Positions 703 through 63,033 of a stretch of DNA of 64,000 nucleotides are shown one piece after another. The notes under the pieces were generated by a model. That model searched no databases and had not been told where the DNA came from. It saw only the letters and a list, made by a program, of their open reading frames with translations. The DNA lies in the NCBI RefSeq assembly GCF_020740795.1, contig NC_067286.1, forward strand, positions 15,504,350 through 15,568,349, given 5' to 3'. The stretch is from Apus apus (lineage: Eukaryota; Chordata; Aves; Apodiformes; Apodidae). The stretch's first letter is position 1, and each line of letters begins with the position of its first letter. The position numbers were made by a program, and so were the translations under genes.

Positions 703-3700
703 GTGAGAGTTCACTTTTTCTTGGATTGTTGCACATGAGACTTGGAGATCTTAGGAATCAAACTGGGGAGCTAAGCCAGCTGATACAGTCTCTCTTTGCA
801 TAGAGAATAAAAGAAAAGCATCTTTAAATCAGAGCTTGTTTGAATAATTGCATCTCTGCTACCTGTCTCTTTAATTTTGGAATCTTTTACAGACTGCTAA
901 ACTAATTTTCTTTTAATTTCCTAAAGGATCTAAAAGTTCTGGAATTACTAGGACTAGCTCTTGTTTCTCTAGATGAGGGCACTCCCTGCTTTTTAGGTAT
1001 GTTAGTACCCATGATATCTTCCCGTAGGGAACTTGCATTCCCTTAATAGTATAGATTACTATACAATGATACTGTCTGTGTTTAAATAGCCTGAGATGTT
1101 TGTTCTTACTTGTTAGCATAGTTGAAATTGTAGCTTCCCTGATGATAATTGAGTGCTGTCTTTGGAGAATTCATCTGAAAGTTTGCTAGAAGTTGTTCTG
1201 GGTGCTTTTTCCCCCCCCCTCAGAAGAGCTTTGATCATGCTGTGTTAAAAAGGCTGTTCCATTAAGACTTTGCTCTTACTATTTTCTGCTGTTGCCTGTG
1301 GAATTTTAGTATCTTTAATATGTATTTGATTCTTGTTTTCTTAAAACTTTTTTACACTGAGATTTGTACTTGAAGGCAAAATAGGACAATTTTTGTGTAC
1401 GTAAAACATAAATAACCCATATAACAGAAACATAAAATTACTTGCAAGGTCTGGTTGATGACCTATTCAGCTAGCAAAGAATGTGAAACCAAATTCTGTT
1501 ACTGTTTTGAGTTATTCTGAGGGCTAATAAGTTTACCTTAAAAGCACAAAATTCTGTTAATGTGACTGCTCAGCTATTACTCTCAAACTCATATATGGCT
1601 GATTGATACTGAGAAATAGGCTTACTAGTTCCAAGAGCAAATATTTTTCTGTAACTTGAATTAATTCAATAAGTTTGTGTGTATATCCTCAGCCAAAAAT
1701 GTGACTTTTCTTCTTTCAATAATTAAAATAACTACTCATTTTATATGAGGCTTTTTTCTCCCTTGCTTTCTGATGGTTAAGCTAAACTGATCCTCACTCT
1801 TAACAGTGGTAAGGTCTCAATATAATGGGGCTTCTGGCAGATCATTTTTAGAACATGCTTAGTGCTAGACTGCTTACTGTGGCACTTGAGCTTCTTACTT
1901 GGAAGGTATTGATTATTTTTGCCTGAAATTAATTGGGCAGTAAGAATAAAGCTGGATCTGGTTGCTGTTTGCTTGGGGTACAGAGCACTCTGCAGTTTGG
2001 CCAGGGAGGCACCTTCCATTAAACTATTTGATACAGGGCAGCCGAGGGGTGGTTGGCAGGACCCGCGCTGACGTGCAACTGCTTTGTTTCCTGTACCTAT
2101 TCAGTTCTTGCTTGCAGGAGGTGTTAAATTGCTGTAAAAGTTGTTCTGATTAATGGCTGGGGATACTGCCTCTACGTGGTTGTAAGTGAAAGGAGTTTCC
2201 CCGTGCCCAATGCTGGCAGGATCGTGCTAAATATCAATTAACATGATCTGTATTGTTTTGAGTATTTTTAGAGGTTAAATAAAAAGCATTCTGATTTGTA
2301 AAATCTGCAGAGTAATACAAATGTACCCATCCATGTAACTTTAAAAAATGTATCTATATTTGCAGAACACTTCACAGAACAGCCATTTGTAAAACTGTTT
2401 TTTGAAAGAATAAAATCTATATATTTCACAAAAATTTTACCATCATGCAGAATGGCTAACTTTCAAACATTAAATTCTCTATTAGTATTCAAACTGGAGA
2501 CCTGCACGGATTATTTGCAGTTGAGTCTTGATTTCATTTGTGAACATATCTAGCAGTTATGGTAAACTGAGACTCTTTGGCTTGAAATTCACAGAAATTA
2601 TGAAAAGAAGTCTGGGAAATAGTCATGGGCTCCAGGAGTGCCTAGCTGCTAGGGTCGTCATGGGCACTGATGATAAGGCACTATCCATCCCACTGGTTTC
2701 CTGGTCACTGTCCTTAGTGAGGATAATGGCTCATGTCTTGGGGCAGACCCATAAACAGCCCCTTACCCACTCCCTAGACATCTTTGCTCTGGAGATACCC
2801 CATGAAAGGAACAGGCACATTTCAGCCCTAAGAAGCATGGTGCTGACTCCTCTTTATGACAGAGGATTGAGCAAAGAATGTGTCCTTTCATAAATAATAC
2901 ATGTTTTACTATACATGTCTCCTTTTTCTCTACCTTGATGAATTTCTTCTTTTTAAACTTTCAATTATTCATTATTTCAGATAAGTAAATATTTATAACT
3001 GAGCAGATGCTGTTTTATTGAATAAGCAGTAGGTGTTTCTGATATATTCTTGATATGGTATTGTAATTCCTTTGTCTGGGTTAGAGGCAACACCTTTTAG
3101 TGTGTTGACAACAGCCAGTTAGGTAATCTTATCCCTTGTTTATCTTAATGGCTTATTTAGAGTTGCATCAAACATTAATGTGATTTACTGTGTATTAACT
3201 GCTCTGGATCAAGAAAAATAATTACTTAGTTCACAGCAGACAAAAGAGGCTCTCTAAACTGCAGTGCTTTCCTATACAAAGGGAGAGCTGCTGAAACTAC
3301 TATGCAAGGAATTAGGGTGGTGGTTCTTTTTTGTGGTGTTAGGATAGTTGGTGCTATGTTCACTGTTCAGCTCTCTGAGGCTCTGAGAATTATGGAAGAG
3401 GTGAAAGCTCAGGGGTGGTACTTTTATCTATTCACACGTGCAGTGTGTTTAGTATAGTGTCTGGATGGCAGCTTCTACTGCTAGAATTACTACCTTTGAG
3501 ACCCCTATTACTACTTAGGCTTAACCAGCTGAGAGTTGCTTGAAAGGAGAATGCTTTTTTATTACAAGCACATGGTATTATCTAACCCAGGTATCTACCT
3601 TGTAACACCTGGTAAGCGTTTCCTCTTAAATATAAGACTACCTATAAAAAATGCCACTGAATTTAGTACACAACAGCAACATACTGGATTGTCTTGTTGC

Positions 3701-21364: not shown

Positions 21365-24300
21365 GTATGTTGAACTTGAAAATGTTTTTCTTGAAATGTT
21401 TTCTTGAAATCTTGTCCTCTGTGAGAGGTGTTTTGTTTTTTTTTACCTATGAGGAATGGATTACCAAACTTGGATATGCGTAAAATGGTTGTATTTTCTC
21501 TAACTAGACTGTGTATCTTTACATGAAGGACAAAATGCTCATTTGGTACAGGAGAAGCTGAAATTGTCATGTACTGGATACAGAATTTCTCTGTTCTTGT
21601 AATAGCATAATTGGTGTTGTCTTGGTTCAGTTTTCACTGTTCATATTTAAATGCTCTGAACACTTGAGAACACTGATGCTTGAGTTTTCTCTGATCTGTA
21701 TGTTTTAAGCATGCAAAAGGAATTTTTTTTCAAATTTTTATAGCATTTTCAGAGCAAATAACGGTGTTAAACTGGTGTAAATACAAATGTGATGCTGGTC
21801 TTACAAGGCTTGCAGTGCACCAGGGCAAGCTGGATAAGCTAGTCTAGCCAGTTAAAAATAATGCCTATTTGCATATGTGATAATTTTCTCCTTTTGTATC
21901 TGAGCTAGGGTGGATTTTGGCAATACCCAGTCTGTATTTTGCGACCTATAAACTGGCAGGGAACACAGGGAATGCTGGCTGGCTGTTGACTCATTCTGGG
22001 CCCTCTCTTTCTCCAGCACAGGAAATGTGATGGAATACATTGCAGCAGGGAGATGGAGAGGTCAAGGACACCTCTTTTTAGAGTAGAAGCAAATATTTTA
22101 AATAATCAAAACAACTTGATATAGAAATGTATCAAGCTAGAGCTTTGATTTCTTGTTTGTCTTCCTTTCTTATGTGTATCCTTTCTCATATTTTTCTTCC
22201 ATCACCTACACTAAAAGGGTGTCTTGTATTTCCACTTGTGAGTAATAACATTTTCCTGTCCAGATGAAAGGTCAGCCATTTGCTTAATGAGATTAACTGA
22301 TCTTCCGGAGATTTTTCTTTTGGAGCTTTCCTGTTTTGGTTTGGTTTTGTTTTTTGCATTTCCTTTGCATCCTATTCCTTTTAGGAGAAGTGTTTTAATA
22401 TACCAACTTAAGTTTTGAGAAGATTGAAGACATAAATAATGTCTTTTAGTGGCATACTTGTTTATAAAACTTGCCCTTTAGTAAACACTGAAAATTCAGA
22501 ATACTTCTTTTCTCAAGTGTTAACATATTTATAAAGTGATACCTTTTTAATATGTTACATTTTTAATTCTTTTAGTAAAACAGAAGATACTGCTTCAGAT
22601 TCTGTGGAAGCCGCTAAAAATGCAAGTGACAAAAAAGGTAAGAAATAGGTAATAATTGGTAGTAATATTACAAAGGTGGAATAGGTCTGTTGTCTTGAGT
22701 ATTGAAACTTCTTTATAGTTCTAAAACCTTTCAGTCCAAAACACAGATGTGTTCACTATTGAAAGCAAAGCAGTGGTTTCTAGGCTTTTTTGATGCTTTC
22801 CATGTTTATTGCAGCCAAGAGCAAAATAAAGGCTATGTTTTCGTAACAATGAAAATGCTTGTGTATGTTGTGACTTGGGTGCTTCACTATTGCATGAAAT
22901 ACCACCCTGTACACTTGCAATAAGGCCAGTCCTGTTAGTATGCTAGTTCTTTACTCTTGTTTCTAGGAAGATGCATCTCTGTAATATATCCTCTTGAGAT
23001 TTTCATACTTCATGTTAAGGTCTACAAATAAATGCTGAACAATGCTTTTCAAATTAGTACAGCTGCATGCAGAAAAGCTACAGTTCCATTTTTACTAACT
23101 TGAATGCTCCAATTTGCAAGTTATAGTGAAATATATTTCACATATGTGGTCACTGAATGCTCTTTAGGTCTCATTTTTTTAAATTGCTGTTTTTTAAGAA
23201 AGCCTTTGTGAAGCAATTGGGAATCACACATAAACTGATAGGCACCATTGAATGATTCTTATAGTCAAGTTGGATGAGGAAGAAACAAAAAAAAGAAACC
23301 CCAAACAAAACAACCAACAGAAAGAAAAAACCAGCATAGAAACGCACCTGTATAAAAGCTTCATCAAATTAGCATGTGCTGTGCAATTTGTTTTTTACCT
23401 TTGCTGTCTGGAGAGAAGAGCAGTGAGAAAAAGTGGAAAAATTTTAAAAGTAAGTGTCTTCCCCCTGTGACCACCTGTGTGGTTATTAGTAAGGATTTTT
23501 AACTCTTAGCAGCATTTTGATGTCCTGCAAACAATTTTTTTTGTGAAGTGTTGTAATGACTGAGGAGTCTTGCAAATTGTACAACTATCTGGATGTAAAA
23601 AAGTCGTAGTTCTATAGGAAATGGTCATAGTGCTATGCTGCTTTGTTATACAGTAGACAAAGTTTTTGCTAGTGTTTTCAGGAGTCAGACTAACTGGAGA
23701 ATGCTTTTACAAATGTCTTGCAAGTGTAATTCAGTGGTTCTCTTGTAAATCTGTATGTGGCTTATAAGCTGTAGCTAATATAGAGTGCAGATGGAGAAAC
23801 TAAACAAAATTAATCTTGTTTTATTACATAAAAAGACAAAAAAATTTGCTTATGTCATCAATGTGTTACTTCTAAAAGCAAAGATTTGATGTATTTTTAT
23901 TTGAAGGGTGCGTTTTCTATCATTATCTAATGTTTCTTTTCTGAAATCTGATCCTGAAGTAATTTTACTTGAGTTACTAGTTAACTATACTGGTACTATT
24001 TGAGAAAATAATAGATATGTGTAGGTAACATGTCTGCCGTAAGACACACAATATGACAAAAGTGCTATCTATAAATATAGTCAGATTTGTTTTACAAGTG
24101 GGCTTCTGTCTTCATAGAAAAGCTAGCAGACCAGGTGATGCAAAATCCACAGGTCCTGGCAGCCCTACAGGATCATCTTGACAACACAGCTCTTACTCCT
24201 TCAAGTTACATTGAAACGTAAGTATAGGGCATAGTAAAATTATTTTACAGAATTTTACAGATGATGTAATAGAATGTTACTATTGTATAATGTAGGATAT

Positions 24301-27300
24301 TAGAGCAAATGAATCACTTAAGAAAAATGGTTGATTTAAACTCTGATTCATAGTGGCCTACTTCTAGAAGGAAGAGTCAAGTTTCAGTTGACTGACACAG
24401 AACTGTGAACAAAATTGTGGCCAGTTCAGTATTTTCCTTGGCTATTTTGGTTTGACCCCTGCTTTTGCTTCTTCCTGTAGCCCTTATTCTGTCAGGGTGT
24501 CCACTGCATTGACTGATTTAAGATGTTGTCCAGGATGTAGTGGAATAATCAGGAATTGTAAATCCTTAGTTTGAAGCTTAGTTTTATATTAACTGAGAGT
24601 AGACTTAAAGTTTAAAATGTTGCCTTTAATAGGTGTTTGTGCCTTTATTTCTTGACTGGGAATAGCTGGTAGGCCGTTTTTTAAAAAAAAAAAGTACATG
24701 CTATAAAAATTTTTATTTCACCTGACTGTATGTGAGTGCTTAATAATTTCAAGTACAGATGTGCAGTGTGTACTTTTCTGAGTATGACCCATGGATCAAA
24801 ACTTTCCCCTGTGGAATGCACAGTTCTTGTTTTCCGTAGTGGATTGGCACAACTCTAGTCTCGAAGTTTAGGTGTAAACAAAGGTATTAATTTCAGATGT
24901 CTGAACTACATGGGGAGGGTGGTGGCCCCAGGGAATGGAACAGAAGATAACACCTTTGAGAACAACTTGGGTAGGAGAGTATTCTTTTAACTTTTTGAAA
25001 TAGGTTTTGAAGAAGTATGTATGTTTTGACAAAACTTGTGTTTAAATGTTGCATTTAGTTATAAGCAACCTGTTTCACAGTTAGGTAGTGCTGAGACAAC
25101 TAACTTCTAACCTTAAGGAATTATTTGTTCTTTTAGTTTACCAAAAGCAGTGAAAAGAAGAATTGATGCCTTGAAACAGCTTCAGGTGAAATGTGCTCAT
25201 ATAGAAGCTAAATTCTATGAAGAAGTACATGATTTAGAGAGAAAATATGCAGCACTCTATCAACCCCTTTTTGATAAGGTGGGAAGACTATGTATACGAT
25301 CTTTGTCTCTTTCTAGCTGAGTCAGTTCTGTTTGCAAATATATAATTTTAAATCTTATGTTATTGATTTTTCTAATGCAGAGAAGAGAGTTTATTAATGG
25401 GGAGGCTGAACCCACAGATGCAGAGTCAGAATGGCACAGTGAAAATGAGGAAGAAGAAAAACTAGCCGTGAGTACAAGCCGGGCAATGAACTACAGATAC
25501 TGTCAGATTGTTTTCTGTTGAAAGACGCATCTTTTGTAAAGAAAGATTTTATCAGTAAAGAGCTGTTGTAATGAATATGCTGTTATGTCCAGTGAAAGCC
25601 TTTAAACTTTCAGTTTAGTCTCTTTTCAGGTTTGTAATTTGAGTGAATTGAAACGTTGCTTTTGTTTGCACTGTTCGTAACCTGTTAACAGTATCTTTCT
25701 GGTAATGGGTTCCATTCCAGTGCTACATAATACCCCAAGATAATAGAAGGCTGGTTGTTTGTCTGCCTGTCCCCTTTATTTTGGGGGACATAATTAGCTT
25801 TCATTTCCATAAATACAGATTAGACACCGATCACCTAATCGTAAAATGGTATTGACCTAATAATGTGTGAGTTGGCTAGTGGATTCCTATTTGCATCTTG
25901 AGTAGGAGCTATCTGGTTTTAGGAGGGTTAATGTAACCTGTAGACTGTCTTTTGCTCTCTTATGATAATTTTTGTAGGTGTATACTCAATGACTTGTTTC
26001 TTTTTCATGGATAAGTGACCTACTTAGAATGCTGTGTTTGCCATTCTGTCAGATTTTCTATGCGTTTTTCCCTTGGCCTGTTTTGATTCAGTTCCTTTGG
26101 ACACTGTTCTGTATACAAAGTGCATTGTTCTTTGTTTTACTGATTTGTGAGATTTAGCACAACACAGTTGTGCATAAGCTAAAAAACGATGGTTATGCTT
26201 TGTGTAAATACAGCATTCAAGGGCCATATTCCATGCAGTTACAAGATCAGAAACAGGGCTAGATGGCCAGTAAGCTGCTGTCTCATACTCTGACTACTCG
26301 AGACTAGTTGACTAACCAAGTAGCTGCTGTTCAGGAGATCTCGTATTTGCTGCCATCTAGTGGTGTAAACGGAAAAGTGCAATACAACTGATTAGACTGA
26401 ATTTCCTGGTTTTTTGGGTTGGAGAAATGACTTAGTCATTCTTTTTTATAGCATTTGAAATCAGTTATGTGTAGAGAATCCTATATCATAAAAGACTAAT
26501 AATGAAAAGTAACCACAAAAAACCAGCTTTACCAAGTATTCTGCAAAAGTGGAAAGCTAAAACAGGATTTCAGAGGGCAAAGTTAAATTTTAAGTTTTTA
26601 TATGAAACGCTGTTATTGGCAGGTGCAACTACAGGAATGAGATTAATAGAGAAATAGAAAATTATTTTTCATTTTGTAGAAAGATGGAAATGTGTTTTAA
26701 TTATTTCTGTTTGTCAAGTCAGTGAAACTGTCCCTCAGTCTCTTTAGTCTTTGTACAAAAGAATTACAATTTAGTTGAAAGTGCATCTGAATTAAGTGTT
26801 TAGTTGTGGAAATAAACCTTGTGTCTCTTAACTTCATTTACAGAGAAGAAAAACTCTGTGACTTTAAATGTTCCTTGAACACAGCTTCAGAGATGACAGT
26901 AGTCTTGTATATCTGTTTGTTTATTAAATAGGTTTTATTTAATACCTTAAATGTTTCTGTATTTCTCAGGGAGACCTGAAAAATGTGGTGGTAATAGAAG
27001 AAAAAGCAGAAGCGCAAGAGACAAATGTCAAAGGAATTCCGGATTTCTGGTTTACTATCTTTAGGAATGTAGATATGCTAAGTGAATTAGTACAAGTAAG
27101 TACTTCTTCCAGATAATAGTGAGTGCTTCTGCAGTGTGTGTGTGAGACTGAATCTTTGAGTCTTCAGAATCCCTAATATTCCTGAAGCTGCTTGAATGTG
27201 ATGGACAAGCGAAACAGCTGACCCAAACTGCTACTTAAACTTGTTAAAGAAATAATGTTTTAACAACCTTTAGATACACTAAAATGCAATTGTATAGACT

Positions 27301-28686
27301 CATAGAATCGTTTTCGTTGGAAAAGACCTTTCAGATTATTAAGTCCAACTGTTAACCTTGTACACTGCGAGTTCGCTAAACCATGTCCCTAAGTACCCAT
27401 ATCTACATGTCTCAAATACCTCCAGGGATGGTGTATCCACCATGTCCCTAGGCAGCGTGTTCTAGTGCTTGATAATTTTTCAGTAAAGAAATGTTTCCTA
27501 ATATCTAATCTAAACCTCCCCTGGCCCAGCTTGAGGCTATTTCCTTGTTATGTTGCTTGTTACATGGGAGAAGAGACCAACACTCACCTTGCTACAACCT
27601 CCTTTCAGGTAGTTGTAGAGAGCAGTAACGTCTCCCCTCAGCCTCCTTTCCTCCAGACTCAACCACCCCAGTTTCCTCAGCTGCTTTTCGGAAGACTTGT
27701 TCTCTAGACCCTTCACCAGCTTGGTTGATCTTCTTTGGACAAGTTCTTGCACCTCAGTGTCTTGTAGTGAGTGGCTCAGAACTGAACACAGTGCTTGAGG
27801 TGTTGACTCACCAGTGCCAAGTACATGGGGACAATCACTTCCCAAGTCCTGATACAGGCCAGGATGCTGTTGGCCTTCTTGGCCACCTGGGCACACTGCT
27901 GGCTCATGTTCCTCCAGATGTCAACCAGTACCCCCAGGTTCTTTTCCTCTGGGCAGCTTTCCAGACACTGCTTCCCTGTTTATAACAGCTGTTCCCCTGT
28001 TGTTTTGTGAATTTAGTCCATAAAGGTTTATTTTTGCAAGGATACTACAAACATACCCATGGATTAGTTGAATTAATAGCTTTTATAGTTTTGCTCTCAC
28101 TTATTGCTTTTAATGCTGTTAAGAAAGAATTCCCTGAAGCAAATCTTTTTGTGAATCTTGCTAGCCATAAATCTCCTGACTGAAGTTACTTTATTTCTCA
28201 GTATTTATTCATGAAGCATAGCATGGTAACAGCTTGCTTTGCTTTACTGAGGATGAAGCCTGTCAGTTGAGAATTTGGCACGTGGTATTTGCGACTACAA
28301 TGAAGAATTTTGGATCCAAATCTGAACTTAAGCTGAAATTCTTCCTTAAGAACAGATTGAACAAGCAAGTTCGGTTAAAATTCTGTTCTTCTAAATATTA
28401 CCTAGTGAATAAGCTTTTGTTTTTTTTCTTTTAGGAATATGATGAGCCAATCTTGAAACATCTGCAGGATATTAAAGTTAAGTTTTCTGAACCTGGACAG
28501 CCTATGGTGAGTTTACTCTGCTTGTTTCTCAAAGGTTGTAGTAGTGAACAGCATTCCAGAATTTTCTTTCCATTTTATTTGGTTGGAAAATATGTGGAGA
28601 GTTTTTCTTGGTTAATACATTTATGCTTTGCTTTCTAAAGATGTATCTTTATGCTTCCTGCCCCTTGGCTTTTTCATCCTTAGCCT

Positions 28687-28738
<52 letters not shown>

Positions 28739-31700
28739 TCTCTCATATAATTGTAGTTTCTAGATTCCAATTCTGGCTCAACTCTGTCTAACTGTCACTT
28801 ATTTTTCCTCTCTCAGATCCCAAATTAGCTAGTCTTAATAGTAAAGTTACATGTCTGCTTTTGGTTTGGGCAGGAATTGTGGGAAAAATACTGGATGCTA
28901 CTTGTATATTGAATATTTCATCAAAATAAGAGATTTAACTTAAAGATTAATCAAAGACAATGGTGAATACTGTGTCTATTGAAAAGGATAAAAAAATACA
29001 TTAGATGGTCTTTCAAAAGTGTACCTAATGTGTAATTTTTGAAGTACAACTTTACCTTTTTTGGGAATTCTCTTGTTTTATATTCAGTGTACAGAAACAG
29101 ATACTGTGTAGAAAATAAGTTGTTCTGTTGTTTATTTAATTCATTCAGACTATACTTACTCCTTGAATTCCTTTTGACGGGCAGGCAGCGAGAAGTACAG
29201 GATTTGAGCCTACACATCTTTTCTTTAAACTTCTTCCTTGTGTTTTTTTTTCCCTGTGTTTGGGTTTTTTTTGCTTTGTCTTGTGGAGTTGTAGTCTTCT
29301 GACAAAGTCCAAAATAAATGCAAGAAAAGTTTTGTTGAAGAGTCACATAAGAAAGATTATAGGACTTTCTCAAAATGCCTTTTGAAGGTTAATAACAGCT
29401 GAAGCCAAGTTGTGGGTTTGTTTTTTTTTTTTCCTAGTTGTCATTGTTTTTCTTCTATTAGTACCAAAAAACTTAAGCTGATAATAGGCTGGGGAAGTAG
29501 TATGGACAGAGAACAATTAAGAATTAAGTTCCTAAATACTGCTAGGGATGAAAGGGAGGATATGAGTTTTATGCACAAAATAAAGTATTCTATCAAGTTA
29601 GTGTGGTTTATCTTGGAGCATATCTATTCAGTGGCAGTTGGATTATTTGGGAATAGTAATTTTTGTCTACAGCATTTTTGTATTCTCATTCAGCTTTGTT
29701 TTACATGACTTTGAGTTGAAGAACTTCTCTTCAAACAGAAGATTTATCTTGTCTCGCACTGTTCGTAACCTGTTGACAGCACATTTCTGTTAATAGGTTC
29801 CATTCCGGTGCCACATCAAATCCAATAAAGGAAGGCTGACAAATTCCATGTCTCTTCTGTATTTGGAGACAAAAGGATGTGTTCCTGACTACTTGAGTGA
29901 AACATGTTAACTGGTTTTTGATGACTGTCTTGGCTGAAATACTCTGGCTATTGAAATTAATGCAGCAGTGGTAGCTTTGTGCTGTAAAAAGTTACCATAA
30001 CCATAATAAAAACATTAATTCTGCTGTGAATTAGAATCATAGAATCATTTAGGTTGGAAAAGAACTTAAAGATCATCAAGTCCAACCTTTAACCCTACTT
30101 TGTGTTCACCCCTAAACTGTATCCCCAAGCACTACATCTGCATGACTTTTAAACACATCCAGCTTTTCGTGAAAGCATTTCATACTGTAGGCAAAATTTG
30201 AAATACATGTTACAGAGGTCAACTGATACCAAAAGAAAAGATGTCCAAATAAAGACTACTGGAAAGGTTATTACAACACCTCAAATAGCATGTGAAATTT
30301 GAAGCTGCTTCTTATTGTCTTCTAGTTAGCAGGTATGGAATAAGATACTGAAATACAGTCTCTACAGATATTTTTTTCTTGGTAGTCCTAAGGATCCTGC
30401 ATGCTAAGTAATGCCACTGTTACCTGTTTGTAACACCAGTAACAGTTTGTGGGATTATTTGAGTATGAGTGTTAGTCCCTGGTAGCAGGTAAATTATAAC
30501 TCTTCCCTTAAACATGATTGCCAGAGAGATTTGCCTCAGCTGAAGACACCAAACTATCTTTTTAAAATGGAAGTAAAGCTGAAATAGGCTATGTGAAGCC
30601 AACATAACTATTCCAGTTCATGTCTGGTTCTCAGTGGCTTCCTTTAAACTGTGAGCATGTGAGTTGGAAAGTCGGCTGTTGCCACCAGTCCCCATCACTT
30701 CTTGACCACTGTCTTTCTAGGTTTCAGTCAGGTGAGTGCATTCATGGGGTCATAGAAAAGAGCTTGTACAGAAAGACTAAGGGGATTTTGGGACATGAGA
30801 GAGGCATAAATACCTGATGAGCAGATTGTTGTCCCTGGAGTTATTTATCCTGTCTACATTGGTGGGCCCTCAAAAAGAGGAGAGCCAAGACACACTGATA
30901 ACAGACCCATTTCCTGGCCTTAGCCTGAAGAGTGTCTGGGGAAGTATATTCAAGGCTCCTGTTTTTGTATGCTCATGAGGTCTAGCTTTTATGATGTATT
31001 GTTGGGGGAGTAAATAAAATATTTAAGGTAACTGTTCAGTGTGTTTTGGCTGTGTGGTAGATGTGATTATGTTGGGGATTTCACCTGTCAACCCTTCTGT
31101 GTTGTTGAACTGACCTGCCTAAGCAGACCTCCTCCCCCTTTGAGTTAGTAAAGCAATGCTGCTGGAAACCTTATGGTTTCCCCTGTACCAAGGCAGTTTG
31201 AATTTTGGTTTACTTTTAAGTAGCTGGTAGTTGAACCTGAGTGCAAAGTGGGCTTATATAGCATTGTGCAATGGGTGTTTGAAAATTGATGTATTGTGTA
31301 TGCTGCAGTTTTCTATAGCTGGAGCCTTTGGTTCTCCGTCTAAGAAACTGAATTTCTGTAAACAATTTTCAGGTGTCACAGGGGAGGTGCCCTCAAACAT
31401 AAGCAGAAACACCTGCTTCAGGCTGTATCCTCTTAAAACAGAGTTGATGACTAGGCTTCCACAGAAAATTAAACCAAGACTTTTCTCAAAGTAATTATTG
31501 CTATACTTGCTTTTAAGACAGCAGTTCTGTATGTAAAGGTGAATGAAATGTAGTAGATTACCTGATTAGAATTTGAATTAGCCAAGATTGTTAGCTTCTT
31601 GCACATTCTTGTTAGCCAAGATTGTCCTAGCTTCTTGCACATTCAGAATTGGTTGACATTCTTAATTTCCTGCCTCTGCTGCAGTTTGAAAGATACGTTT

Positions 31701-34700
31701 GCCATTGAATTTTTAATCCTATGTTCAGTTGGATTAACAGTAATTCTACTGAGGCACCATTTCAAAGATAAAATGTAGTGGTAACATAAAACTGTAATGG
31801 AACTTTCTTCCAGTCTTTCTCGTTAGAGTTTCACTTTGGGCCCAACGACTACTTTTCTAATTCTGTCCTGACGAAAACATACAAGATGAAGTCGGAGCCA
31901 GACAAGACAGACCCCTTTTCATTTGAAGGACCTGAAATAGTTGATTGTGAGGGGTAAGGAAAACTTGAAATTCAAAAAACCTTCTGAAATAAAGTCTATA
32001 TTTTCCAGGTGTTGTTTTCTCCTACTGTGACAATGATTAATGAAGATTAAAAAAGAAAAAGCTTTTGCTAACTTTAAAACCAGGCATGTTTGTAGGAATG
32101 CTAATAATTATCTTAGCCTCAGCATGCAGAGATAACACATACTGTGAATTTTAAATCCTTAATGTAATAGATTATTAATGAAGTTACAAGCCTTTTATTT
32201 CAGGATAATTGGGTAAATACATCTTAGTCATTACATCTCATGATGGTGCAACTGTAGATGAATGGAGAGACTTTTAATTGAGATAAGTGTCTGTTTGCAC
32301 AGTGGCAGGAAGGAACTGAAAAGTAAGTTATTTCTAGCTTGCTGTACTTGCCTGCCAAGTCAGCCCAAGCACTTTTCTTAGGAGAGCTAAAATGTGCTTC
32401 TCCCTGACTGGTACTTGCCTGTTTATTTTTAGGGTAAATGGACATGGCCTTGACCTGTAGTGAGAGGACATAACATGTTTTTTTCTAAGTGTTTGACTGT
32501 TGGAAGAATAATTGCGAACTGTTGAGATTTTTTAAAATTTGTTTGTTTTTTTTTTCCAAATAGCTTAATGATGCCCTGTGTTACAAAAATCTAGTAGTTG
32601 AGGCAAAGTAATATTAAAGTGTGGGTAGGGTGAGGGCAGTGATTACACTGAGAAGACTATTTAGCTTTTTCATTTAAGGAAATATTTGATATGTCCAACA
32701 TACACATTCTCTAGCACTATGATATGTCTGCTTGACATCTTGTCGAGTAGATTTAAGTCGTCAGTGTGTGTAAAACTAGCTTTTGAGAATGATAGGCCAG
32801 CTTTGCCTTGATGTTTGTTGCTCAAATGCTCAGTTTATTTTCACTGATGTCTTATGTTAAAGTGCTTTTTACCACATGTTTTCTCTAGGTGTACTATTGA
32901 CTGGAAGAAAGGAAAAAATGTTACAGTTAAAACAATCAAGAAAAAACAGAAACACAAGGGTCGAGGCACAGTTCGGACAATTACTAAACAAGTACCTAAT
33001 GATTCTTTTTTTAACTTCTTCAGCCCAATCAAGGGTAAGCTTGGAAACTGCAAATTTAGGATTCTTAAATTATGTTGTGTTTTCTTTGTATGTATTTGTA
33101 TCTGTACAGTTTAAACTTACAGACTGTTTAAGCTGCTGCATTGTATACCTTTTTCTTACTAGAGGAAGAGAGCAAACGGCAGCCCAGTCAAACAGATAAT
33201 TTCATTCTGATATTGTGTAGAATTGGAGCATTAGGTGTCTTGTGTAAACAGGATTCATTGTACAGGAAGAGTCTCATGTAGCATCTGCTGAAGAAGTTGA
33301 CTTGTTTTACCACAGGATGGCTCTGTGCATCAATTTGAGGGTTTTAACATGCAAAAGAAATCTCTTCCGGTGTTCCAAGTTAGAGCATATCAGTTTCATT
33401 TAAACCTTTGTGATGATGCTACTTCCTGTGGTCTTTTGTGATTAATTAGTGATCCCTAATGCTCCATAAATACCTGCATAATTTTCCTTGTCACATAATG
33501 TACTCATGTATTTAAAACATTTAGATGGATTCTGCAAACATTATTTATTCTTGATACATCTCATTGTACTTGTGGTTTACTTTGTGGACTTCAGAGATGT
33601 AGTGGACAAAACTGACATTAGTTCTTGATTCAGTCATAGGCTATTATGAACTACCTGTCTGTTTAAAATACAACTTCAAATCACCGTGTACCTGGGGATA
33701 AGAAAAAAGTGATAAGTATTTCCAAAGTTGGAGTTTGTTTGGTACAGAAGTGTCCTTTACCTTAAACTTTTTTTGTGTTACAAGTAGTTGCTGCTTTCAG
33801 AAAGGGAGGGAGATTTGTTTGCCTCATGATGGTTTTACAATATTTTCTTTTAAATACTTAAAGGACGTACTCTGGAGGTAGCTGTATAAGAAAGATAAGC
33901 TTCTGACGTGCTGGCAGGTGATACTTGCAGTTTCAACTGGAGAACAGACTGAGCCAAATTACCCATTTCACAGTAGGATCACAGTACCATGGCACATGGA
34001 GTAGAGGAGGGAGATCTCTTTGGGGGGATGGTTTTGTTTTGTTGTGTTTTTTTAAACAAACAAAACCCCCACAGCTTTCCTTACTGGTTACATTACTAAG
34101 CCTCTGCTGAACAATGTGTTGCAGATTCATGACAAAATGTTAATCTGCTTGATTTGGGGAGAGGAGAGGGTTCTTAGTGTTCTAGCAAAATAAAGTTGAT
34201 GTAGTTACAGCATTAATACAGAAATAAAACGTGTTGATTGAGGGGAGAAATGTGATCTGCAAGCCTTTGGAACGCATCTTTGCAGAAGGAGTATCCTGTA
34301 CAACAATCTTCCGTGTCAGAATGGGAGCTTTGGTGCTCTTGTCAGAGCACATAATTATTGCAAGTGTAATTTTCAGGGTTTAATTTAAAATGAATCTGAA
34401 TTGTCTTTAAAGGTTTCATAGTTAGCTTTTGAAGACTTTATAACCCAAATGTTTTCTGGTATGAGAGTGTATTTATTTATACTGTGCTTTGTCATCTTGA
34501 ATATTGAGGTGAGCTAGACTATACAAACTTTTCTTAATTTTACTGTCTTGTCTTTTTGCAGTATCTAGCGATGGAGAGTCATTGGTGAGTTTACGTTTCT
34601 GAAATTGCGTGATTGCTCTTTGCCATATCTTTTGTGCTAAACACCTCTATAGTGACTATTTGTGTTCTTTTATTAAGTACTGTGTATCTTTATTGTTTTG

Positions 34701-37700
34701 GTTTTTTTCTCTTGCCAAAGGTGAGCTTTATCTTGATAAAAGGAAAGATACTGTTGACTTCTCCAAGTAATCCATTGACGTTTTGCTGTTACATGTCTTG
34801 CTGATCTAGTACTTCTATAATGGTCACTGTAGGGAAGAGGTGTTTTTTTTCTCTAGCCGCTTGGCACCACTGCGTTACTGATGGAGGATTTCTTTTTAAA
34901 TCAATCTGAAGCAGTCTGAACAATTCTGTAACAACACTTTTTTAGAACCAGCAAGGTCTATATGAGCCTTTTTGATTGAAGCTGTTCCAGCAGGCCAGTA
35001 ACCTGTATGAAGAAAGTCAGTACAAAACTTTAGAAATAAATCTCAATTCTACAAATCTAGGTTTAGACTTCCATTATTTCTTTTGTTGTTACAAAGTTAA
35101 GTATACTGAAAGTACATGTGACCTGAAGGTTGATGTTGATGACAGTGTGATGTTTCTCAAATGTGTAACTGAAATATTTTGGTTCACTGCTCTGTAGCAT
35201 GTCACATTTCTATTAGAAAAATGAAACTGAATTATTTTACAGGATGAAGATTCAGAATTTACTTTAGCAGCAGATTTTGAAATTGGACACTTCTTCCGTG
35301 AAAGGATAGTCCCTCGTGCTGTGCTTTATTTCACTGGGGAAGCTATAGAAGATGATGATAATGTATGTATGCTATCAGCATTTTGCTTATTAATCACCAT
35401 GTAGGTAGAAACATTCTCCTTTCCTGATTAGACTAGCATGTAGTATAAATTACATGAGAATAACAAAAAACCTGAAGAGTTCCTGTTACTTAGGAATAGG
35501 GAAGCATCATTCTACCTGCAACGAGTCATTAATCTTTGCTTCTGGAAGGGGCTTAATTTCAGTTACTGTGTTTGAATATGCTAGACCTATTACTGCAGAT
35601 GGTATGCAAATATTAGCAGAGCTAATAAAATCTTGTTGGTTTTTTTCAGTTTGAAGAAGGTGAAGAAGGTGAAGAGGAGGTGAGATGCATACTGTATCTT
35701 GTATAGATAACTTATTACCTACTGTGTTCCAGAAATAGCCCTATCTGGAGCAGAAGATAGCTGTTCATAAATGGTCTTGTGTATGATACTTGTTTTCAAA
35801 AGAGTTCAGCATTCATGAGTTTACAAAATATAGCTGGTTTTCCTCTTCACAAAAGTAATTTCTGCAAGAATATTTATCAGATTTTTTCTAGTATTCTGAA
35901 AGCTGCTTTCTGACATGATTAAAAAATTAAAGACTGCTTTTTTTTTTTTTCTTGAGTGCTGCATAAGAACCTTCAGTCATATTTTAAAATACCTGTTACT
36001 TAGGCAATAGTGGAATTCAGCTGTCAGCTTTTAGTTGTTAAAAATTTGAAGACTGGGCCTTGCTAAATGTAAAGCAAAAAAGGGAGAGCGTGTGGCTCTT
36101 CAGACCAAAAGCTTAATTTAGGCTGGAATTTCTAATATAACAAGAGGTCTGGTCTTGTATGAATACAAACATACTGTGAAAGGCTTGCACAAAACCACTA
36201 AACGATACCACACTTAAATGAATTATTATCCTTTACAGATAATTATATTTTCCTTTTACTGTGGTGTTCTTGCTAATTGGTTAAAGATGTATACCTGACA
36301 TGAAGTTCACCATAGTAAAAGTACATCAGAAGTTGTTGAGCTGGTGATCCTATGTGAACTGGCAGCCTTCAGCTCTTCAGTCTCTTCTGTTTTTGCAAGC
36401 TGCAATACAGACTTCTGGGCTTAGGCTGTTGAGTGACTAAACATTTTCTTATTTTTATTTTTTAGGCTGAGTCTTGATAGAAGTGTACATGTATTTTTAA
36501 TCTGTCTCCAGTGCCAGATGTTACTACTTGGATGTAGGCATGTGCACAACAGAGTGTGAAAATACTGCAGAGTCCTGTAGAAGTGCATAGCCTATCCACA
36601 GTAATCCAAATAAACAGACTCTTTTGGAAGGAGGTCAAAACAAAGAACAAAATTAGACATTAATCTGTCAGGTAGAAGTTAAAAATTGCTTGGAGACTGC
36701 AGCAGCTTATGTAAGAAGGTTGCCTTAAGCCATAGTGAACCTTTTAAATCTGTGTTTTAAATCTTCTTTTAAAGATTTTGCTTTAAGATTTTGAAAATGC
36801 TGAATTCTTTTAAGTCGACCCAGGTAGTCTTAGTGCTGACATCTGAAACACTCAAGAATACCGTGGTAATATAACTTGCTGTTGTTTGTTTTTTTTTCCA
36901 TTACAAAAAGCTGCCCTTTTAACCTGTTTTAATTTCTGTTAGTTTATCTCTATTTTGTCATAGGAGTTGGAGGGGGAAGAGGAGGGAGAAGAGGAGGAAG
37001 ATGCAGAGAGTGATCCTAAGGTAAAGATTTTTGTGTGCTTAGTCATAATGTAACCAAGGTTAAAACAGTTTGAAAAGATTACTAAGTTATTAAGAACTAA
37101 AAGCTGCCCTAGCTTCTGACTGCTATGTCTTCATCTTCAGTAATGAAATTGCTTTTGAAAGAGAAGTTAGTATTTCCATAAATTGAGAAAATGGTAGGTT
37201 TTGTCTTCCAACCTGCACTAAGAAAGAGAATTTCTGAAGTGTATGCCTTCTTAATGGTATCTCTGTATAATAATGATATATCCATTTCCTTCAGAAAGGT
37301 CTTATTTCAAACGTTCTGTGGCTGGACTTCAACTTAGAATTAGTCTGACAAGTCTCAACTAGCTTGTTTGTATTTTCTTTTCCTTAGAACTGTTCTTTTT
37401 GCTGGTCCTAATGGCTGCAGGTTAGACTCCACATGTCTGTACTCAGCTAGAAATCAAAAAAGTTAGTCCCCAACTTTGAATTTTAAACTTTATGAGATCT
37501 GGTTTAAAATTCAGTCTTAAAGGTTAGTGTTCCTTCTGATAGATATTTTATGATCTTTCAGTTATGGTAAAGTTAATGCTTACATTTATTGAAGGTGGAA
37601 CAGTAGTGACAGAATTTAATTAATTTAGTTCTTTAAACATTAGTTCTTAATTTTTTATAAAGGGACAAATGAAAAAGTGAAAGTTGTGCAAAACTGCTTA

Positions 37701-62379: not shown

Positions 62380-62634
62380 CCCCTCTCCGAGCCCCGCGCC
62401 CCGCAGCCCAGCGCCGTCGGGCGGCAGCGAGCAGGGAGCGCGGCTGGGGGTGGGGGCGGGCGGGAGGCGGGGCGGAGAGGGGGCGGCGGGCCGGGCTCCC
62501 CGGGGGAGGCACCGGAAGGCGCCCGGCGCTGATTCATTGCAATAAATTGTTCCCGACGCGGCTGGGCTCGGTCATCGCCGCCCAAGCCGGAGCCGGAGCA
62601 GGAGCTGCAGCGGAGCCGCCGCCGAGGAGGGAGG

Positions 62635-63033
62635 ATGAAGATGCAAGCCGAGGTGATCCGCGAGGGCGAGTTGGAGAAGCGGAGCGACAGCCTTTTCCAG
62701 CTGTGGAAGAAGAAGCTGGTGGTGCTGACCAAGGACAGCCTCAGTCTTTTCCCCGACGGGCACAAGCGGGCCAAGGGCAAGGAGCTGGGCTTCGGCTCCA
62801 TCCTCAAGGTGGACTGCGTGGAGCGGACGGGCAAGTACATCTACTTCACCATCGTCACCAAGGACCGCAAGGAGATTGACTTTCGGTGCCCGGACCAGAG
62901 CTGCTGGAACGCTTCCATCACCATGGCCCTCATCGACTTCCAGAACAAGCGGGCCATCCAGGACTTCAAGAGTCGCCAGGAGATGGAGCAGGCGGCGGGC
63001 GCCCAGGAGCGGCGGCTGGCCCGGGCGCCCTGA
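62635..63033 (+). CDS. PHLDA2: PHLDA2, pleckstrin homology-like domain family A member 2
   Basis: A small cytoplasmic protein made almost wholly of a PH domain that binds phosphoinositides. In mammals it restrains placental and fetal growth and is expressed from the maternal allele. The 132-residue product starts [19 protein letters not shown] and has the PH signature: [13 protein letters not shown] (20-32), [20 protein letters not shown] (55-74), [16 protein letters not shown] (80-95) with the C-terminal helix tryptophan at 91, and [19 protein letters not shown] (98-116). It aligns with human PHLDA2 from residue 7 onward. It is about 20 residues shorter than the human protein because the Ala/Pro-rich tail is missing. 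The ATG at 62635 has G at -3; a second ATG at 62641 is the third codon. The coding region is not interrupted by an intron. Confidence 0.97.

Follow-up and report, generated by a model that had tools for sequence, protein, structure and literature searches.

In a window of 64,000 nucleotides (nt) from the bird Apus apus (the whole stretch analysed here: NCBI RefSeq assembly GCF_020740795.1, contig NC_067286.1, positions 15,504,350 to 15,568,349 of the forward strand), two related elements of about 130 nt lie in separate introns of a gene that is best read as NAP1L4, and the locus raises the question of what such a diverged pair is for: two guide RNAs with different targets, one guide and its backup, or the remains of a repeat. 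Very probably, both elements are working SNORA54 box H/ACA small nucleolar RNAs (snoRNAs), which share a target in 28S ribosomal RNA (rRNA) through their 5' pockets, were duplicated within the host gene and are redundant. Reading by eye from the raw letters had correctly picked out a duplicated pair of H/ACA guides.

The identity of the two elements is carried by a search of the whole window against Rfam at gathering scores, which returned two RNA family matches, both to SNORA54 (RF00430). Each match spans positions 1-129 of the 129-position model and lies well above the family cut-off of 60 bits, so that the covariance-model comparison proposed in the sequence-only reading gives a positive answer for both intervals and places SNORA54 at the two locations where that reading had seen a pair. 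Its borders need adjustment, since the Rfam matches start 2 nt earlier and end 9 nt (copy 1) and 16 nt (copy 2) sooner, giving lengths of 128 and 121 nt, respectively; the shared stretches GCACTGTTCGTAACCTGTT and CCATTCC are found in both copies. The parts of the two RNAs are as follows.

25666..25793, + strand: SNORA54 copy 1 (H/ACA snoRNA); Rfam RF00430 at 97.1 bits, predicted fold -41.6 kcal/mol, z -3.60
25668..25723, + strand: copy 1, 5' hairpin with guide pocket; 18 of 19 Rfam pairs standard
25675..25678, + strand: copy 1, left guide element UCGU; same in copy 2, pairs with ACGA of eukaryotic large-subunit (LSU) rRNA
25711..25717, + strand: copy 1, right guide element UCCAUUC; same in copy 2, pairs with GAAUGGA of eukaryotic LSU rRNA
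25725..25730, + strand: copy 1, H box ACAUAA (ANANNA), in the hinge, 14 nt from the upper stem
25733..25786, + strand: copy 1, 3' hairpin; predicted fold with a long lower stem and without an open pocket
25788..25790, + strand: copy 1, ACA box, 3 nt from the end
29754..29874, + strand: SNORA54 copy 2 (H/ACA snoRNA); Rfam RF00430 at 92.2 bits, predicted fold -37.0 kcal/mol, z -4.67
29756..29811, + strand: copy 2, 5' hairpin with guide pocket; 19 of 19 Rfam pairs standard
29763..29766, + strand: copy 2, left guide element UCGU
29799..29805, + strand: copy 2, right guide element UCCAUUC
29813..29818, + strand: copy 2, H box ACAUCA (ANANNA)
29821..29867, + strand: copy 2, 3' hairpin; predicted fold with a 4+4 nt internal loop (UAAA / GUAU)
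29869..29871, + strand: copy 2, ACA box, 3 nt from the end

The architecture of both elements is that of the H/ACA class. The predicted fold is hairpin-hinge-hairpin-tail in each copy, as had been read from the letters, and for neither copy did any of 200 shuffles fold as well; the reverse strands gave z scores of -2.18 for copy 1 (5/200 shuffles as good) and -0.26 for copy 2 (74/200). Box H/ACA RNAs carry an H box of consensus ANANNA in the hinge and an ACA 3 nt from the end, and both copies have this arrangement (ACAUAA and ACAUCA, respectively), the H box lying 14 nt from the upper stem. These features support the assignment of both copies to SNORA54-family H/ACA RNAs in the usual host gene of the family, under structural constraint. 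The full-length RF00430 matches and the NAP1L4 host are shared with mammalian SNORA54 (ACA54), while the 3' hairpins of both copies depart from the RF00430 consensus.

Comparison of the two copies with each other indicates where this constraint acts. The 5' hairpins align without gaps and are identical at 49 of 56 positions, the seven differences comprising three in the apical loop and four in the stems, none of which breaks a pair. Three of the four stem changes (U-A to U.G, U.G to U-A and A-U to G.U) had been described in the sequence-only reading and are present as described; the fourth converts a non-standard A.G of copy 1 into an A-U in copy 2. All four are one-sided, and the 5' hairpin contains no two-sided change. 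When these same seven substitutions were placed randomly on copy 1 in 200,000 trials, with pairs counted on the structure given by Rfam (19 pairs) and not on one derived from these two sequences, 19 pairs resulted in 0.36% of trials and no net loss of pairing in 3.7%. Because random placement so seldom keeps or reaches full pairing, the pairing-preserving changes support constraint on the RNA.

Beyond the 5' hairpin, similarity falls away. In the hinge and 3' hairpin several indels distinguish the two copies, which agree there at 47 of 76 columns, with a score above those of all 300 random intron pairs. A two-sided change from C-G to T-A in the 3' apical stem, which had formed part of the case for selection on RNA, finds no support, since the apical part cannot be aligned with confidence: several indels lie between the 3' hairpins, the family alignment of copy 2 is doubtful in this stem (posterior digits 3-5 on the left strand and 5-8 on the right), and the predicted apical folds of the two hairpins differ. 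Judged by the window, the elements are not a dead repeat. In the flanks, the 100 nt on the 5' side score slightly above random intron pieces (1/300 as high) and the 3' side does not (221/300 as high). When the host introns were compared by blastn, the snoRNA itself was the sole strong match (E = 1e-16 over 93 columns), the next having E = 0.11, and on these alignments no clear homology is taken to extend beyond the RNA.

The 5' pocket has identical strands, UUCGU.. and UCCAUUCC, in the two copies; the identical GTTCGT does mark a conserved side of the pocket, as had been suggested, and the other side (UCCAUUC) proves to be identical as well. The pocket fits the stretch GAAUGGA-U-U-A-ACGA with 7+4 Watson-Crick pairs in L002. 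This LSU fragment is eukaryotic according to Rfam, is not known to be avian and ends at model position 2671 of 3401, apparently short of the region of the second 28S site reported in mouse; no eukaryotic LSU reaching over that region was found. L002 is one of seven genome-contig loci, in assemblies labelled bacterial, that were matched by a 28S stretch, which was absent from the viral contigs searched; of the three loci submitted to Rfam, L002 and L003 were reported as eukaryotic LSU, with nothing reported for L006. The complementarity scan covered L002, in which the pocket fit is the only one at the thresholds used. Matching of the pocket to rRNA, which had been proposed as a check, thus yields 7+4 pairs to one L002 site, weak by itself, and this fit is supported because the table of chicken snoRNAs in Shao et al. 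gives the same 4+7 nt (5') together with the site 28S-3311 (Shao et al., 2009, PMC2653536). Assuming no indels, the spacing of 28S-3311 to the chicken sites 3340, 3409 and 3448 of that table lands on a U in L002 in all three cases.

Of the other loci, L001, L005, L006 and L007 carry 28S pieces of eukaryotic type at the ends of contigs whose assemblies are labelled bacterial, and upstream of TAGCCAAATGCCTCG their sequence departs from the L002 rRNA at a point that we take to be the insertion site of the R2 retrotransposon; these loci may represent R2-type elements derived from contaminating host or eukaryotic DNA. L003 and L004 are 28S pieces in contigs labelled cyanobacterial, and Rfam finds LSU at both ends of the L003 contig; the intervening stretch of about 3.7 kb is of other sequence and could be an element inserted into a unit of eukaryotic rDNA.

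The host gene was delineated by tblastn with a human NAP1L4 probe. From 21 rows, 10 collinear matches on the + strand, from 22574 to 37023, were used, eight of them at E <= 7.3e-5 and two weak at E = 0.21, and the other 11 (E >= 0.47) were dropped. The three exons that were tested singly all match the Pfam NAP domain (PF00956), and a joined peptide of four exons (140 residues) is identical to the human NAP1L4 probe at 123 of 142 columns. The top matches among solved structures are chains of NAP1L1, with many more differences as judged by eye, and none of the matches is labelled NAP1L4. The host is therefore best read as NAP1L4 rather than NAP1L1 at the level of sequence, and the proposal that it houses both copies holds, with NAP exons on either side of each.

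22576..37023, + strand: host gene as far as its coding exons were found, of the NAP1 family and best read as NAP1L4; 10 collinear tblastn matches, Pfam NAP
25468..26969, + strand: host intron of copy 1, gt..ag, between the exon ..EEEEKLA (to 25467) and GDLKNVV.. (from 26970)
28507..31813, + strand: host intron of copy 2, gt..ag, between the exon EYDEP..GQPM (28435-28506) and SFSLEFHF.. (from 31814)

The host introns have two coding exons and one intron between them. Two simple patterns did not find the ATG-bearing first coding exon, and the exon numbering is thus relative: if two exons lie upstream of those found, copy 2 would be in intron 8 (mouse number), and if three do, the copies would be in introns 7 and 9 (chicken numbers). 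The intron of copy 2 also contains a (TA)n(CA)n microsatellite at about 28690-28738. Two 63-nt stretches at 27295-27357 and 30032-30094, of the form ..ATAGAATC..TTGGAAAAGA..AAGTCCAAC.., are 83% alike and are presumably ends of CR1-type long interspersed nuclear elements, which are typical of birds. Further along the window, a PH-domain frame (Pfam PF00169) at 62533-63033 on the + strand resembles PHLDA2, a known neighbour of NAP1L4; an upstream frame at 414-803 may be the end of CARS1, though Pfam and PDB gave no match for it.

A duplicated SNORA54 pair in NAP1L4 is already known as a cis-duplication, having been listed for chicken in 2009. The table entry for GGgACA39 records two isoforms, 127 nt, the target 28S-3311 with 4+7 nt (5'), the homologue ACA54 and the host NAP1L4 (intron 7,9) (Shao et al., 2009, PMC2653536). 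The Apus apus pair resembles this entry in its ACA54 family, its NAP1L4 host, the placement of two copies two introns apart and the 4+7 nt 5' pocket, and is of similar length (127 nt, given for one isoform, versus 128 and 121 nt here); the likeness is to the description in the table and not to sequence letters, and the intron numbers are unmatched, since the 5'-most exons were not found here. According to the same source, new chicken snoRNAs come mainly from cis-duplication, and many paralogs keep their guide regions and structures (Shao et al., 2009, PMC2653536). As with cis-duplicated snoRNAs in general, the copies here lie in introns of a single host. In contrast with the two places found here, the mouse study gives one place for Snora54, between exons 8 and 9 of Nap1l4; there it reportedly guides pseudouridylation of 28S at 3478 and 4221, and a further role via the protein Lyar was reported in the same 2025 study (PMC12101510). 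The noncoding RNAs of 48 bird genomes have been annotated with Rfam models, in a report whose main text does not give SNORA54 by name (Gardner et al., 2015, PMC4378963).

Taken with the observed family matches, folds, boxes, host introns, identical pockets and LSU complementarity, a simple course of events may be proposed for the pair, in which we infer the expression of the RNAs, the modification of their target, the mode of duplication and the redundancy. Both RNAs would come out of the NAP1L4 pre-mRNA inside two of its introns and would then be trimmed for assembly into H/ACA particles, in which the shared 5' pocket (UCGU + UCCAUUC) would pair with the conserved 28S stretch GAAUGGA-U-N-AACGA and position the U of that stretch for pseudouridylation, at the site numbered 28S-3311 in chicken. 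The second copy would have arisen by duplication inside the host gene, later divergence having affected the flanking intron and the 3' hairpins but spared the 5' guide hairpin, and the simplest role for such a pair would be redundant dosage for one rRNA site. Several points weigh against this account. GGgACA39 is not named among the detected RNAs in the text of the reverse transcription PCR section of Shao et al. (PMC2653536). The rRNA complementarity alone is weak, 351 fits having been obtained in 2000 shuffles of L002, or about 0.18 per LSU-sized random sequence; one A of the target stays unpaired between the pseudouridine dinucleotide and the left element; and L002 is not known to come from a bird. 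Finally, copy 1 lacks one standard pair in its 5' upper stem.

Since the copies have the same 5' guide pocket, 'backup' is the likelier of the two functions that the sequence-only reading had considered for the pair, ahead of 'different targets'. Different targets could come about solely through the diverged 3' hairpins, in which case the copies would split their work: a common 28S site would be served by the 5' pocket and different second targets, or lost ones, by the 3' hairpin. The divergence of these hairpins in sequence and predicted fold is in line with this division, as are the two 28S sites reported for mouse Snora54, since there may be a second pocket that could be lost (PMC12101510); for the chicken pair, however, the table lists only a 5' pocket (Shao et al., 2009, PMC2653536), and we regard a split as improbable. 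Its only hint is the contrast between the closed stem of the copy 1 3' hairpin and the 4+4 nt loop of copy 2, both of them folds predicted from single sequences. If copy 1 has closed to a plain stem and copy 2 keeps its pocket, a second target or a protein-binding role might be confined to one copy, a proposal that is likewise doubtful.

The same contrast could be read as decay, with one copy a pseudogene (copy 1 is the likelier, its 3' hairpin having a long lower stem and no open pocket in the minimum-energy fold) and the other working alone, and the unlike lengths and folds of the 3' hairpins would agree with this. Yet the H and ACA boxes are intact in both copies, which also share their 5' pocket, pair almost completely and score well above the cut-off, and 49 of 56 positions of the 5' hairpins agree, against a random-like 3' flank and a 5' flank marginally above random, which makes the loss of either copy very unlikely. 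That the elements are a dispersed repeat, either a short interspersed nuclear element or a snoRNA-derived retroposon, with two copies here by chance, is scarcely credible, given that the window holds no third copy (two Rfam matches, and otherwise short weak matches by blastn), that the 15-nt start has one further match in it, with 3 mismatches, where 0.85 are expected by chance, that no A-rich tail of more than four bases adjoins either copy, and that Shao et al. report no retroposon counterparts of snoRNAs for chicken (PMC2653536).

Two redundant SNORA54 guides in one host gene thus remain the preferred reading. The pair leaves the understanding of guide RNAs unchanged and is an ordinary, known case: one more cis-duplication of a bird snoRNA, in which the guide hairpin would be kept while the other hairpin drifts.

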